From: Oceaniovalibus guishaninsula JLT2003
Lineage (GTDB): Bacteria > Pseudomonadota > Alphaproteobacteria > Rhodobacterales > Rhodobacteraceae
DNA: 64,000 nucleotides
Direction of reading: 5' to 3'
Assembly (NCBI RefSeq): GCF_000299575.1
Contig: NZ_AMGO01000007.1
Location: 1-64,000, forward strand
Each line of letters begins with the position of its first letter. Position 1 is the stretch's first letter. Below, piece by piece: positions 1,606 to 39,703 of this stretch. The notes under the pieces were generated by a model, which saw only the letters and a program-made list of their open reading frames with translations, searched no databases and was not told where the DNA came from. The position numbers and the translations under genes were made by a program.

Positions 1606-2139
1606 ATGGCCAAACGGTGGTATTCGGTAAGCGTGCTGTCGAACTTCGAGAAGAAGATCGCCGAACAGATCCGGTCCGAGGTTTCCGAGAAGGGACTCGA
1701 GGACGAGATCGACGAGGTTCTCGTTCCGACCGAGGAGGTGATCGAGATCCGGCGCGGCAAGAAAGTGACGACGGAACGTCGTTTCATGCCCGGTTACGTG
1801 CTGGTGCATATGGAAATGAGCGATCGCGGCTTTCATCTGATCAGCCAGATCAACCGCGTGACCGGTTTCCTGGGTCCGCAGGGCCGCCCCATGCCGATGC
1901 GAGACGCCGAGGTGCAACAGATCCTCGGCCGCGTTCAGGAGGGCGAGGAAGCGCCGCGCACCCTGATCTCGTTCGATACCGGCGAGAAGGTGAAGGTGAC
2001 GGACGGCCCCTTCGAAGGTTTCGACGGCATGGTCGAAGACGTGGACGAGGACGCGCAGCGTCTGAAGGTCAGCGTGTCGATCTTCGGCCGGGCGACCCCG
2101 GTGGAGCTGGAATACACTCAGGTTTCCAAGCAGATCTGA
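1606..2139 (+). CDS. nusG: transcription termination/antitermination protein NusG
   Basis: A 177-residue NusG, which binds the RNA polymerase clamp through its N-terminal domain and Rho or ribosomal protein S10 through its KOW domain. The N-terminus [12 protein letters not shown] is typical of the NGN domain (to about residue 110). The C-terminal KOW motif is visible as [13 protein letters not shown] (about residues 127-139). The start is at 1606, preceded by AAGGACAG. An upstream in-frame extension (to 1573) lacks family similarity. The 162 bases between secE and nusG show no gene. Confidence 0.97.
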
Positions 2140-2234
2140 GGTTCGACGTGGGAGGGGCGACCCGAACCACGGCATAGCCCTTCGGGGCCCATGTAGGGCG
2201 GACAGCGATCCGCCGCGAAGAAGGAGAAGGCCAG

Positions 2235-2660
2235 ATGGCCAAGAAGAAGATCGGCAGCCTCAAGCTGCAAGTAAAGGCGGGGCAGGCCAATCCTTCGCCG
2301 CCCGTCGGCCCGGCGCTGGGTCAGCGCGGCATCAACATCATGGAATTCTGCAAGGCGTTCAACGCCCGCACGCAGGAGATGGAGACCGGCGCGCCGACCC
2401 CGGTGGTCATCACCTATTATCAGGACAAGTCCTTCACGATGGACATCAAGACGCCGCCGGCGTCCTATTACCTGAAAAAGGCCGCCAAGGTGACATCCGG
2501 GTCCAAGACCACCGGCCGCAGCAATGTCGGCAGCGTGTCGCTCAAGCAGGTGCGCGAGATCGCCGAAGCGAAGATGAAGGATCTCAACGCCACCGACGTC
2601 GAGAGCGCGATGAAGATCATCGTCGGATCCGCGGCGTCCATGGGTATCGAGGTGAAGTGA
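2235..2660 (+). CDS. rplK: 50S ribosomal protein L11
   Basis: L11 binds the GTPase-associated centre of 23S rRNA and forms the base of the L7/L12 stalk. It is also needed for the stringent response. The 141-residue product has the expected length. It has the N-terminal proline-rich helix region ([13 protein letters not shown], residues 22-34) and the C-terminal RNA-binding domain from about residue 70. AAGGAGAAGG precedes the ATG. The stop overlaps the rplA start (TGATG), so the two genes are translationally coupled. The 95 bases after nusG probably carry an internal promoter or leader. Confidence 0.98.
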
Positions 2661-3358
2661 TGGCAAAGCTGGGAAAACGCGCGCAGGCCGCCCGCAAGGC
2701 CGTCGAGGGGAAATCGAACCTGACGGTCGAGGAAGCCGTGGCGCTGGTTAAGGCGAATGCCAGTGCCAAGTTCGACGAAACCGTCGAGATTGCGATGAAT
2801 CTGGGCGTCGATCCGCGCCATGCGGACCAGATGGTTCGTGGCACGGTGAACCTGCCCAACGGCACCGGCAAGGCCGTCCGTGTGGCGGTCTTCGCGCGCG
2901 GCGCCAAGGCCGAGGAGGCCGAGAAGGCCGGGGCCGACATCGTGGGCGCCGAGGATCTGATGGAACAGATCCAGGGCGGCAAGATCGACTTCGACCGTTG
3001 CATCGCGACGCCGGACATGATGCCGATCGTCGGGCGTCTGGGCAAGATTCTGGGTCCGCGCAACCTGATGCCGAACCCCAAGGTCGGAACGGTGACGATG
3101 GATGTGGCCGAGGCGGTCGAGGCCGCCAAGGGCGGTCAGGTGCAGTTCAAGGCCGAGAAGGCCGGCGTTATCCATGCAGGCATCGGCAAGGCATCCTTCG
3201 ATGAAGCCAAGCTGGTCGAGAACATCCGCGCCTTCGTCGAGGCCGTGGGGCGCGCCAAACCGACGGGCGCCAAGGGCACCTACATGCGGCAGGTCGCGCT
3301 GACCTCGACCATGGGGCCGGGCGTGACCGTCGATGTGGCCAGCGCCACCGGCAACTGA
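2660..3358 (+). CDS. rplA: 50S ribosomal protein L1
   Basis: L1 forms the mobile L1 stalk that helps release deacylated tRNA. In many bacteria it represses its own rplK-rplA mRNA. The 232-residue protein carries the signature [20 protein letters not shown] near residues 122-141 and the typical N-terminus with V-E-E-A-V. The ATG at 2660 overlaps the rplK stop codon. An alternative GTG at 2657 would add one residue and is less likely. The structured leader of rplJ begins right after the stop. Confidence 0.98.
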
Positions 3359-34833: not shown

Positions 34834-35121
34834 ATGTCGCGCGTTTGCGAACTGACCGGAAAAGGCCCGATGTCGGGCAACAATGTCAGCCATGCCCACA
34901 ACAAGACCCGCCGCCGGTTCCTGCCGAACCTGAACGATGTGTCGCTGATGTCCGAATCGCTGGGCCGCACCGTCAAGCTGCGGATTTCGGCGGCGGCCCT
35001 GCGCACGGTCGATCACAGGGGCGGGCTGGACGGGTTCATGGCCAAGGCCAAGGATTCCGAGCTGTCGGCTAACGCGCTGAAGATCAAGAAGGACATCGCC
35101 AAGGCCCGCACTTCCGTCTGA
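34834..35121 (+). CDS. rpmB: 50S ribosomal protein L28
   Basis: A 95-residue L28 of the longer alphaproteobacterial type. The N-terminus is [20 protein letters not shown], then [11 protein letters not shown]. The ATG at 34834 has GAGGA upstream. The frame can be extended upstream into meaB, but this has no family support. The gene has its own promoter and a strong terminator, so it is probably transcribed alone. Confidence 0.97.
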
Positions 35122-35145
35122 GCCGACCGGATCTTTTAAAGATCG

Positions 35146-35171
35146 AACCCCGCCTTTCAGGCGGGGTTTTT
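35146..35171. terminator. terminator of rpmB, shared with the channel gene
   Basis: Stem AACCCCGCC / GGCGGGGTT with a 5-base loop, running into TTTTT on the plus strand. Just upstream is an additional dyad GATCTTT-T-AAAGATC (35130-35144). The convergent channel gene ends 25 bases further on and can use the same structure. Confidence 0.9.
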
Positions 35172-35196
35172 ATGTTTTGTGGGTCGTGCTGGTGAA

Positions 35197-36234
35197 TTAC
35201 TCGTCCACGTAGCGGCTGACGATGTCCCAGCCGCTTTCGTCGGACAGTGCGGCAAGCAAGGCACGGTTCATCGCATCGCGCAGGGGCGATCCTTCCGCGG
35301 TGGCAAAGCCCACCATGATCGGATCGAGCTGCGTCTCCTCGACCGTAAAGGAATGGCCTTCGCGTCTCAGCGCGTCGCGCAGCACCAGATTGGCGCCTGC
35401 GGCCATTTCGATATCCTCGCCTTCTTCCAAGGCATCGAGCATCGATTCCATATCCGAATAGATGATGATGTTGGCTTCACGGCCGCGCAGGAAGCGTTCC
35501 GACGTGCTGTTCGACACGACACCGACATCCTTGTCGGCAATCTGACTGCGTAAGTTCGAGGCTTCTGCCCCGGCCAGCGTGACGATGGCAGCGGTCAGCG
35601 CGGCGCTGACTGCCAATCCGACCATCATCCACAACATCGCCACCGTCCGGCCCAATGTTGTGATCGGCGCCTTGTCGCCGTAACCGATGGTCGTCAACGT
35701 GACGCCGGCCCACCAGAACCCGTCGCCCAGACCCTGAAGCGGCTTGCGGCTGAACTGGTCCTCGTTCCGCCGGCGTTCCACCAGCCATACGATACCGCCC
35801 ACGATCAGCAGCAGCACCGACATGGTCAGCACGAGGCGAAGGAACTCGATCGAAGCGAACCCCCGCACGACCGACAAGATTTCCGATCGCTGAGGCGCAG
35901 CGAGGCCGAGCGTCGAGGTATGAAAGGGCAACGTCAGATCGACGGCGCGCTCGATCTCTGCGGTGGCATAGACCGGCCCCGCCACGTCGATACGTCCGCC
36001 ATCCAGCGCGTCGGCAACGTCGCGATACGCGATCGGCACGATGTCGTAATCGACATTCTCGCGCTCGGCGATCAGACGCCAGAGCGTCGGCGCCATGCCG
36101 GTCCAGGATCCGTCGGCGGTCAACGTGGCATAGGGCGGCTGTTCGACCATGCCGATGGTGATGCGATCCTGCGCCCAGGCAGGCACGGTCAGGCCGGCCA
36201 GGATAACGGCCAGCGTCGGTAACAGTTTCGTCAT
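35197..36234 (-). CDS. GluR0-like ligand-gated potassium channel (ionotropic glutamate receptor type)
   Basis: A fusion of an extracytoplasmic amino-acid-binding protein and a K+ channel pore, as in the cyanobacterial glutamate receptor GluR0. The 345-residue protein has a signal peptide (1-22) and then the first ligand-binding lobe S1 (23 to about 118). The pore module follows: helix M1 (131-153), re-entrant loop with the full potassium filter T-T-I-G-Y-G-D (181-187) and helix M2 (about 195-220). The second ligand-binding lobe S2 runs from 228 to the end (with D-K-D-V-G-V-V-S-N-S-T-S-E). The ATG at 36234 follows GGAGG. The ligand is not predictable. It stands alone and converges on rpmB. Confidence 0.88.
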   Translation of the reverse strand: MTKLLPTLAVILAGLTVPAWAQDRITIGMVEQPPYATLTADGSWTGMAPTLWRLIAERENVDYDIVPIAYRDVADALDGGRIDVAGPVYATAEIERAVDLTLPFHTSTLGLAAPQRSEILSVVRGFASIEFLRLVLTMSVLLLIVGGIVWLVERRRNEDQFSRKPLQGLGDGFWWAGVTLTTIGYGDKAPITTLGRTVAMLWMMVGLAVSAALTAAIVTLAGAEASNLRSQIADKDVGVVSNSTSERFLRGREANIIIYSDMESMLDALEEGEDIEMAAGANLVLRDALRREGHSFTVEETQLDPIMVGFATAEGSPLRDAMNRALLAALSDESGWDIVSRYVDE

Positions 36235-36301
36235 GCAGTCCTCCAGGTCCAGGCGAACGCATGGGGCCGGGCAGGGTTGCAGGTTCGCCGGGATCGCAAT
36301 G

Positions 36302-37483
36302 TCAGAGCGTTGCAGGCGCGCGACGCTCGGTGCGACGGGCGCGCTCGGTCTCGGATTTGAGCTGACCGCAGGCCGCCATGATGTCCTCGCCCCTCGGAGT
36401 GCGGATCGGGCTGGCATAACCGGCCTTGTAGACGATATCGGCAAAGGCGCGGATGCGGTTGTTGGACGACCGGCGATAGGGCGCGCCGGGCCATTCGTTG
36501 AACGGGATCAGGTTGATCTTGGCCGGGATCCCTTCGATCAGCTTCACCAGCCTGCGCGCGTCGTCGTCGCTGTCGTTGATCCCATCCAGCATGACGTATT
36601 CGAACGTGATCCGTTCCGAATTGCTGAGCCGGGGATAGGCCCGCAGCGCATCCAGCAGCGACTCGATGTTCCAGCGTTTGTTGATCGGCACCAGCCGGTC
36701 GCGCACATCGTCGGTGGTCGCGTGGAACGACACGGCCAGCAGACAGCCGATCTCGTCGGCGGCACGCGCGATCTCGGGGACCACGCCGCTGGTCGAAAGG
36801 GTGATGCGGCGGCGCGACAGGCTTATGCCTTCGGGGTCCATCGCGATGCGCATGCCATCGCGGACGGCTTCGAAGTTATAAAGCGGCTCGCCCATTCCCA
36901 TCAGCACGATGTTGGACAGAAGCCGCGTTTCGTCCTTGGGGTTGCGGCCGGGTTCGGGCCATTCGCCCAGATCGTCGCGCGCGACCATGATCTGACCGAC
37001 GATCTCGGCCGGGGTCAGGTTGCGCACCAGACGCTGCGTGCCTGTATGGCAGAACGAGCAGGTCAACGTGCAGCCGACCTGGCTGGAAATGCACAGCGTG
37101 CCGCGCCCTTCCTCGGGGATGTAGACAGTTTCGACCTCGTGACCGCCGGCAATGCGCAGCAGGTATTTGCGGGTGCCGTCGGCGCTGACCTCGCGCCGCA
37201 CGACCTGCGGAACCTCGATAACGAAGTGATCGGCCAGCATCGCGCGATAGGGCTTGGCAAGGTTCGTCATCGCCTCGAACTCGCGTACGCCTTTCTGGTA
37301 GATCCATTGCCAGACCTGCCCCGCCCGCATCTTTGCCTGACGCTCAGGCGTGCCGGCCGCGATCAGGGCGTCGCGCAGTCCGTCGCGCGTCAGCCCGACA
37401 AGATTGGTCGACCCGTCCGTCGCCACGGGCTTGCGCGGCAGGGTGAGCACGTCTTGCGTGATGGGTGTGGCAGGCGCCGTCAT
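36302..37483 (-). CDS. rlmN: 23S rRNA (adenine2503-C2)/tRNA (adenine37-C2)-methyltransferase RlmN
   Basis: A radical-SAM enzyme that methylates C2 of A2503 in 23S rRNA and A37 in some tRNAs. The 393-residue product has the iron-sulfur motif C138-x3-C142-x2-C145 ([13 protein letters not shown]), the resolving cysteine C372 near the C-terminus, and [10 protein letters not shown]. All key residues are present. The start at 37483 (M-T-A-P-A-T-P) gives normal length. It lies between the channel gene and otsA, on the same strand but with 61-67 base gaps, so co-transcription is uncertain. Confidence 0.96.
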
Positions 37484-37544
37484 GGCAGTCTTCGGCAAAT
37501 ACGCATTGGCGGCATATAGCGCCGGCGCGTCGGCATTGGAAGGG

Positions 37545-38945
37545 TCAGCCGCCCGCATCGACCGACAGGCCGGGTCCGCGCACGTCACCCAGGGCCCGAA
37601 GGAAGTTGGCTGACCATTCGGCGATGTCATGCTCGAACACGTTGGCGCGCGCTTCGACATGACGCGCGCGCCTTTCCTCGCGGCTCATCGTCAGGGCGCG
37701 GCCGATCGCCTCGGCCATCTGCGAACGATCGTAGGGATTGACCATCACCGACGATTTCAACTGTTCCGCCGCCCCCGCGAACCGCGACAGGATCAGCACG
37801 CCCGGATTGTCGGGATCCTGGGCGGCGATGTATTCCTTGGCGACCAAGTTCATGCCATCGGCCAAGGGCGTCACCATCGCGGCATCGGCGGCCCTGAAAA
37901 GCGGTGCCAGAACCTCGCGCGGGATGTTGCGGTGCAGATAGCGGATCGGCGTCCAGTCAAGCTCGGCATGCTTGCCGTTCACGGCCCCCGCGATCTGTTC
38001 TAGCTCGGCCCGGATTTCCTTGTAGGCTAGGATCTCGGATCGCGACGGTGGCGCGATCTGCAACAGCGTCGCGCGCGGCATGTCCGGTCCGCGCGTGTCC
38101 AGATAGCTTTCGAAACCGCGCAGCCGATGGGGGATGCCCTTGGAATAATCCAGCCGATCCACGCCGATCATCAGCTTGGCGCCGCGCCTGTCCGGCCCAA
38201 TCAGGTCGCTGCCGTCGATGGCGACGGACGCTTCGGCGAATTCCTGCGGCGCGATGCCGATGGGGAAGCTGGCGATACGGAAGCGCCTGTCGGCATAGCT
38301 GACCATGCCATCGGGCAACAATTCGCCGCGCGGCGCCCGTCGGATCGCGGCAAGGAAGGACGCCACATCGGACTGGCTTTGCAGGCCTACCAGATCGTGC
38401 GCGGCCATCCATTGCAAGAATGCCTCGGGCTGGGACAGCGCTTCGAGGTCGGTATGCGTCGGGAAGGGGATGTGCAGGAAGAACCCCATCGTCACATCGA
38501 CGCCCAATTCGCGCAGACAATGCGCCAGCGGCAGGAAATGATAGTCGTGGATCCACAGCCGGTCGTCAGGACGCAGCAGATCCTTCAGAAGCCCCGCGAT
38601 CCGGCGGTTCACCCGCATATAGCCTTCGCGGTATTCGGGACGGAAATCGATAAGATCAGACCGCCGATGACATAGCGGCCACAACACGCCGTTCGAATAT
38701 CCGAGATAGTACTCGTTCCGGTCGGCGGCGGTCAGATCGAAGGACAGCTTGGTATAGCCGTCGGCGGGATGCTCGACAAGATGGTCGCGCGGCGTCTCGA
38801 CCACCTCCTCGGCCGCGCCGACCCACAGGCCGCCCGAACCGCGCAGCGCGTCGTCCAACGCCACGACCAGTCCGCCGGCGGGGGGCTTGGACAGCGGAAT
38901 CCGGTTGGAGACGACGACCAGGCGCCCCTTACCTTCGTCGCTCAT
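37545..38945 (-). CDS. otsA: trehalose-6-phosphate synthase
   Basis: A GT20 glycosyltransferase that joins UDP-glucose and glucose-6-phosphate to trehalose-6-phosphate, an osmoprotectant precursor. The 466-residue protein shows V-V-V-S-N-R (10-15), the W-I-H-D-Y-H substrate loop (131-136), the UDP-glucose-binding [10 protein letters not shown] (261-270) and [10 protein letters not shown] near residue 365. The ATG at 38945 overlaps the otsB stop (ATGA), so the pair is translationally coupled with otsB first. Confidence 0.95.
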
Positions 38946-39703
38946 CTTGCGCCGCTCCAGCGCGCAAGCAGCGCATGGACGGCGGCGACATCGCGCAGGC
39001 GCAGCGGTGCGACGGTGGGGCCGGGGCCGACCTTGATAGCCATGCCGCCGGTTTGCAACGCCGCCTCCATCGCCGGTTCGTCGGTCAGATCGTCGCCGAT
39101 CATGACCGCGCGGTCGGCTGCCGTGTCCTGCATGGCACGCCGCAGGCCGGCGCCCTTGTTGGCGTCTGCGGGACGAATCTCGTCCGCCATCTTGGACGGA
39201 TGCAGGTCCAGATCGTTTTGATTGGCGAGCATTTCCGTCAGCCTGGCGCGCACCTCGTCCGTCCGTTCGGGCGCGGCGCGGTAATGGACGACGACGCCGG
39301 TTGCCTTGTCCTCGACCAGCAGGCCGGGCCGGGTCGCGGCCCAATCGTGCAGTTCCGCCTTCATGCGGGACAGGCGCGGATCGTCAGCGAAGGCGTGCGG
39401 CTGGATCGTGCCGCGCTGCCGCCTTTCCGCCCCGTGCCCGCCGACCATGTCCAGCCCGGTGCCGGGCAGCATGCGTTCCAGATCGGCCAGTCCACGGCCC
39501 GACAGCAACGTCGTTCCGCCGCCGAATACCTGATCCAGCCTCAACAAGAGCGGTGCCAATTGCGCTTCCACCCGGACCGCATCGGGACGGTCGGCCAGAT
39601 CCACCAGAACGCCGTCGAAATCCAGAAACAGCGCCGTCCGGCCGAATTCCGGCATCGGAATGTCTTCGGGACGGTCATAGCGTTCTGGTGCGTCTTCCGG
39701 CAT
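38942..39703 (-). CDS. otsB: trehalose-6-phosphate phosphatase
   Basis: A HAD-superfamily phosphatase that releases trehalose. The 253-residue protein has the nucleophile motif D28-F-D30-G (F-L-D-F-D-G-V-L-V-D), motif II L-L-S-G-R (67-70), K184 in D-A-N-K-G and motif IV G-D-D-L-T-D-E (203-209). A short acidic N-terminal extension (about 20 residues) precedes the catalytic domain. It is the promoter-proximal gene of otsBA. The synthase and phosphatase together make this a complete OtsAB trehalose pathway. Confidence 0.93.
   Translation of the reverse strand: MPEDAPERYDRPEDIPMPEFGRTALFLDFDGVLVDLADRPDAVRVEAQLAPLLLRLDQVFGGGTTLLSGRGLADLERMLPGTGLDMVGGHGAERRQRGTIQPHAFADDPRLSRMKAELHDWAATRPGLLVEDKATGVVVHYRAAPERTDEVRARLTEMLANQNDLDLHPSKMADEIRPADANKGAGLRRAMQDTAADRAVMIGDDLTDEPAMEAALQTGGMAIKVGPGPTVAPLRLRDVAAVHALLARWSGAR

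Follow-up and report, generated by a model that had tools for sequence, protein, structure and literature searches.

The window analysed here, a stretch of 64,000 nucleotides from Oceaniovalibus guishaninsula JLT2003 (contig NZ_AMGO01000007.1, positions 1 to 64,000), harbors on its minus strand a gene (35197-36234) encoding a GluR0-like K+ channel of 345 residues, in which both residues that anchor amino acids in GluR0-type sensors are replaced. On sequence grounds, the protein is probably a GluR0-type K+ channel that stands alone and has a sensor re-tuned to some small molecule outside the ordinary alpha-amino acids. This reading is held with modest confidence.

The open reading frame (ORF) runs from an ATG at 36234 to a stop codon at 35199-35197, and a Shine-Dalgarno-like GGAGG (36240-36244, minus strand) can be read 5 bases ahead of the ATG. 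Profile searches matched SBP_bac_3 over residues 25-342 (E 1.2e-13), surrounding an Ion_trans_2 match at residues 140-219 (E 2.7e-15), whereas Lig_chan, at 28.9 bits, stayed under its cut-off of 30.8 bits; a profile search of this kind had been proposed in a preliminary description of the gene. A probable Sec signal peptide (residues 1-21; 36172-36234), read by eye from a hydrophobic window ending in AWA-Q, is followed by the S1 half of the ligand-binding clamshell (residues 24-118; 35881-36165), the M1 helix (129-153; 35776-35850), the pore helix and selectivity filter (165-187; 35674-35742), the M3 helix (193-226; 35557-35658), which carries an invariant Thr214-Ala215, and the S2 half of the clamshell (232-343; 35206-35541), all on the minus strand. 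The clamshell halves were placed by domain match, alignment and predicted structure, M1 by hydrophobicity and predicted structure, and M3 by predicted structure. The protein thus presents S1, M1, P-loop, M3 and S2 in one chain, as GluR0-type channels do, and its K+ filter TTIGYGD (residues 181-187; 35674-35694) conforms to their TxxGYGD motif.

Hydrophobic windows are confined to the signal and residues 119-155 and 191-226, and, judging from the chain length, hydrophobicity and secondary structure, both the amino-terminal domain and M4 are absent, as in the GluR0 type. In the AlphaFold monomer (mean pLDDT 90.6), the TTIGYGD loop follows a pore helix (165-180) and lies between two helices, M1 and M3, so that the first refuting condition of the preliminary description does not apply to the monomer, and structure comparison of the model gave the ligand core a GluR0 fold, with GluR0 cores as its best structural matches. 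The GluR0-like architecture, chain and filter position of the preliminary description, and probably its signal peptide, are borne out by the sequence and by the predicted clamshell and pore. Full-length proteins with the same layout occur in named genomes (up to about 52% identity among the matches listed), and Ion_trans_2, SBP_bac_3 and Lig_chan were matched at E <= 0.001 by 18/18 scanned members of the clade defined below, which excludes a chance origin of the layout.

In GluR0-type sensors, an arginine in S1 binds the alpha-carboxylate of the ligand and an aspartate in S2 binds its alpha-amine; alignments place Ile94 (35953-35955) and Ala281 (35392-35394), respectively, at these sites in the window protein. 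A 2010 survey of prokaryotic glutamate receptors reports total conservation of these two residues across its Groups 1 and 2 (PMC2950845). Comparison of an 18-member clade profile with the GluR0 crystal sequence agreed on both positions with a separate alignment of the ligand-binding domain (LBD) halves. For the phylogeny, 139 loci were reduced to 86 full-length or nearly full-length proteins by dropping 53 short or pore-only ones, and to 71 by removing 15 identical rows; named relatives had been collected through the clade motifs GDGFWWA and LTTIGYGD (at least 80 matches), so the clade is over-represented. In a maximum-likelihood tree built with the trait columns left out, the window protein falls within a supported clade of 27 among the 71 (100/95). 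The S2 aspartate is absent from 27/27 clade members and present in 44/44 other proteins, with one change on the tree. The S1 arginine is absent from 23/27 (retained in L037, L046, L113 and L115) and present in 41/44 non-clade proteins (not in L029, L058 and L121), with six changes, so that its loss alone is no clean mark of the clade. Amino-acid sensing, as originally suggested for this gene, is weakened because the residues anchoring the alpha-carboxylate and alpha-amine are absent here and the aspartate is absent clade-wide. Partial anchor loss also occurs outside the clade: L058 (Leptolyngbya) and L121 (genome G166), both with a K+ filter, keep the aspartate and carry G or D at the arginine position.

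Additional pocket positions (44, 87, 89, 243 and 308) were chosen by reference to named residues of GluA2. Position 89 is S/T in 42/44 others vs 3/27 clade members, and position 308 is Tyr in 40/44 vs 0/27; within the clade, position 243 is S/T in 21/27 and position 44 is Trp in 17/27. Clade residues at the anchor sites are A, P, N, S, G, E or T at 281 and L, A, R, I, V, G, M or S at 94. Other positions are conserved among the 27 members, namely Arg53 (27, an arginine also found in GluR0 itself), Thr106 (23), Thr108 (24), Thr301 (23), Asp304 (20) and Pro305 (25), and the filter reads LTTIGYGD or ATTIGYGD in all of them. The M3-S2 linker spans 26-29 residues in the clade vs 30 in 24/25 canonical K+ rows, and the S1-M1 linker 41 residues in 24/27 clade members vs mostly 43 in canonical channels; overall, the gating linkers of the clade are 2-3 residues shorter. 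A different ligand is favoured because, without the arginine, the aspartate, S/T89 and Tyr308, an ordinary alpha-amino acid would lose its usual contacts.

Ratios of nonsynonymous to synonymous substitution rates (dN/dS), computed by a simple method on hand-picked pairs with several dS values above 1, ranged over 0.06-0.37 in S1 and 0.01-0.67 in S2 for nine clade pairs, and over 0.15-0.38 and 0.07-0.43 for eleven other pairs. In these pairs the sensor is thus subject to purifying selection. The low dN/dS, the clade's own conserved positions and the linker differences suggest that the sensor has been kept with an altered pocket rather than decaying. Relaxation of the sensor was considered and set aside, as clade and canonical channels compared at equal pore identity showed no consistent contrast in how alike their sensors are.

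By homology with GluR0, the protein would adopt an inverted topology as a tetramer, most likely a homotetramer, with the two-lobed sensor (S1 and S2) outside in the periplasm and the pore loop entering the membrane from the cytoplasmic side. Closure of the clamshell on a ligand would pull the pore open and allow K+ to flow. Clade members average 4.5 Lys plus Arg in the M1-P loop vs 1.9 and 2.0 in the flanks, a bias compatible with this orientation, and the window protein has a signal-peptide-like start. In GluR0, both ends of the protein are reported to be outside, and K+ uptake in E. coli requires the soluble domains and dimer contacts (PMC13099474). The host genome contains three TrkH matches that would serve K+ uptake, and the likely task of the channel would be a fast K+ conductance shifting membrane potential or turgor upon an external cue. 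A second GluR-like match at E 1e-20 was found in none of the 8/8 family genomes bearing a clade member, which argues for a homomer without a glutamate-binding partner. The only weak extra SBP_bac_3 match with a long frame in the host genome (C54) was rejected as a partner subunit, since its translation reads as an ordinary binding protein and not as a channel.

In decreasing order of probability, the readings are a different ligand, a ligand-free mechanical or constitutive channel, amino acids bound via substitute contacts, and a non-functional gene. A sensor without a ligand, whose clamshell would be an assembly and mechanical module of a channel that is constitutive or responsive to tension or voltage, is possible though rather unlikely. 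It would account for anchor positions 281 and 94 varying freely once lost and for the variable length of the M3-S2 linker, which is fixed in nearly all canonical channels, and a 2026 study proposes that GluR0 itself may respond to tension and reports that its function depends on the soluble domains (PMC13099474). However, the purifying selection on S1 and S2 in the nine pairs tested and the newly conserved positions near the pocket motifs (T106, T108, T301, D304 and P305) argue against it. Gating by amino acids as in Synechocystis GluR0, the view of the preliminary description, appears more doubtful still: the shared fold and domain order, the structural matches to GluR0 cores, the frequent S/T243 and Trp44 and the arginine kept by four members are consistent with substitute contacts, but Ile94 and Ala281 in the window protein, the uniform loss of the aspartate and the missing S/T89 and Tyr308 weigh against them, as does the total conservation of both anchors in Groups 1 and 2 of the survey (PMC2950845). 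A decaying gene, to which the lost anchors could also point, is highly improbable given the intact ORF with its ribosome site, the perfect K+ filter, the TTIGYGD signature in 27 relatives and the low dN/dS in the pairs tested.

Several observations weigh against a sensor re-tuned to another ligand. The arginine is still retained by 4/27 clade members and changes six times on the tree, and a one-residue gap near 86-87 leaves more doubt about the Ile94 column than about the Ala281 column. The variable residues at 89, 94 and 281 would also suit a sensor that binds nothing. At a pore identity of 70-80%, sensor identity is 45/39% in the clade vs 54/52% in canonical channels, although sensors are equally alike at 60-70% and clade sensors are more alike at 80-90%. 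In addition, no conserved neighbour pointing to a ligand was found among the loci examined.

The clade is mainly composed of Rhodobacteraceae, with Parvularcula, Aurantimonas, Altericroceibacterium and the Bacteroidota genus Neolewinella as outliers; it further includes Tropicimonas, Limimaricola, Citreimonas, Jannaschia, Pseudoroseicyclus, Oceaniglobus, Palleronia marisminoris, an alphaproteobacterial metagenome-assembled genome and additional Rhodobacteraceae members. In an LBD tree that included the trait columns, GluR0 and NpGluR0 both fall outside the clade, the GluR0 branch being long and unsure. GluR-like genes are not rare in the family, with matches in 101/394 genomes at E <= 1e-20; those at E <= 1e-100 occur in 8/394, all eight in the window protein's clade. 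Among the best 30 loci read from the 101 matching genomes, most of those beyond the K+ types belong to a class with VVNGGFEER or a similar sequence replacing the K+ filter and with arginine and aspartate kept (e.g., L013-L015 and L129-L139), a class that may be widespread in the family. In the class sample, which comprises mostly one genome per group, 5/385 genomes match at E <= 1e-40, and the window's own is the sole clade member (0/384 beyond it), so that the distribution of the clade is patchy. The other four genomes carry R/D with a K+ filter (L142), R/S without a filter (L143), R/D with a non-K+ pore (L145), and neither filter nor anchors (G538; L144, L146 and L147), indicating that anchor loss has also occurred among proteins beyond those in the 71-row tree. 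Contig C64 of G538 holds these three GluR-like genes in tandem, and the two that were read both lack the K+ filter and anchors.

Mutual exclusion of the two channel types within the host's genus was considered and rejected: of 14 genomes, 3 carry the clade type, 6 the canonical type, 5 neither and none both, and the estimated hypergeometric probability of about 0.15 is not significant. Mobile carriage was likewise rejected, as plasmid matches were all below 32% identity. One plasmid homologue, L150 of Rhizobium tumorigenes (1896-3017), annotated as a transporter substrate-binding protein, keeps arginine and aspartate and has TQASTGH instead of the K+ filter. A putative viral contig in IMG/VR (L149, 3001-3945) encodes a clade-like channel with MTTIGYGD and E and N at the anchors, closest to Neolewinella L050.

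Within the window, the channel gene is flanked by rpmB (plus strand, after meaB) and by rlmN (36302-37660, minus strand), its upstream neighbour across a 67-base gap, with which co-transcription is possible from the arrangement. Farther upstream of rlmN lie otsA, otsB and an N-acetyl-glutamyl-phosphate-reductase-like gene, named from its semialdehyde-dehydrogenase domains. The trehalose-phosphate synthase and phosphatase genes (37545-39703, minus strand) are directly upstream of rlmN. A terminator-like hairpin (35145-35169, plus strand) follows rpmB and lies past the channel gene on its 3' side; the count of 1 vs a mean of 0.6 in shuffles is not significant alone, and a promoter scan of 35000-36600 gave no sigma-70-like sequence. 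Consistent with the earlier view that the gene stands alone, the channel is the sole Ion_trans_2 match in the 2.9-Mb genome, and no conserved neighbourhood emerged among 22 clustered loci, in which common neighbours were mostly within Jannaschia only and the clustering was blurred by long antisense ORFs in high-GC DNA. Adjacency to rlmN among the loci examined is restricted to the window and Tropicimonas L032 (and its duplicate). Genes for GGDEF/EAL (cyclic-di-GMP) proteins lie near the channel gene in Palleronia marisminoris L042 (1475-4624 and 6375-7844) and Altericroceibacterium L068 (473-1372).

Ligand-gated K+ channels that join a solute-binding protein to an inverted pore are regarded as ancestral to animal glutamate receptors, and studies of them are few. 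A clade that retains pore and clamshell but drops both anchors suggests that such a bacterial sensor can be re-tuned. It offers a small, probably homomeric system for studying the coupling of clamshell closure to the K+ filter, the natural cues of such channels and the question whether glutamate receptors originally served glutamate. It also advises caution when genes of this kind are given the blanket label "glutamate-sensitive potassium channel" or "transporter substrate-binding protein".

The architecture itself has been known since GluR0. GluR0 of Synechocystis PCC 6803 (slr1257; 1II5, 1IIT and 1IIW) and NpGluR0 of Nostoc (2PYY) share with the window protein the S1-M1-P-M3-S2 order, the lack of an amino-terminal domain and of M4, and the clamshell fold, and GluR0 shares the K+ filter; the window protein differs from both in Ile94 and Ala281 for Arg and Asp and in a replaced Tyr308-Gly309 motif. 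Group 1 of the 2010 survey ("putative glutamate-sensitive potassium channel") has the same receptor topology and K+ filter, but also the totally conserved anchors that the window protein lacks (PMC2950845). Canonical K+-filter relatives in the host's genus and elsewhere, such as Palleronia aestuarii L063 (MTTVGYGD), have the same layout at about 34% full-length identity, whereas they keep Arg and Asp, have longer fixed linkers and form a separate tree branch. No report of prokaryotic glutamate-receptor channels without both anchors was found in the open-licence literature, although the subscription literature could hold one. KcsA-type channels, which like the window protein combine two helices with a pore helix and a TTIGYGD filter, have no S1/S2 sensor around the pore, and the opposite orientation would be expected for the window protein, as shown for GluR0 against KcsA (PMC13099474). 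Unlike a solute-binding protein of an ABC transporter, as plasmid homologues are annotated, the window protein has an inserted membrane pore, and its neighbours are rpmB, meaB, rlmN, otsA and otsB rather than a permease and an ATPase.

Insect ionotropic receptors (IRs) use co-receptors, whereas no second GluR-like gene is present in 8/8 clade genomes sampled. They are eukaryotic, with M4 and a cation pore that is not K+-selective, in contrast to the bacterial two-helix protein with its K+ filter. They are nevertheless glutamate-receptor-type channels whose LBDs lack at least one glutamate-contacting residue, indicating that such residue changes can mean new ligands (PMC2924276). The likeness is an analogy and not kinship. 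It is tentatively proposed, as a possibility short of probable, that the clade gave up amino-acid recognition and turned into homomeric K+ channels with a chemosensory role for a different class of small molecules, a prokaryotic counterpart, with a K+ pore, of the origin of insect IRs. Since two of the features compared, the S1 arginine and the S2 aspartate, are lacking, the clade is best classed as a GluR0-type variant that stands outside the "glutamate-sensitive potassium channel" group.
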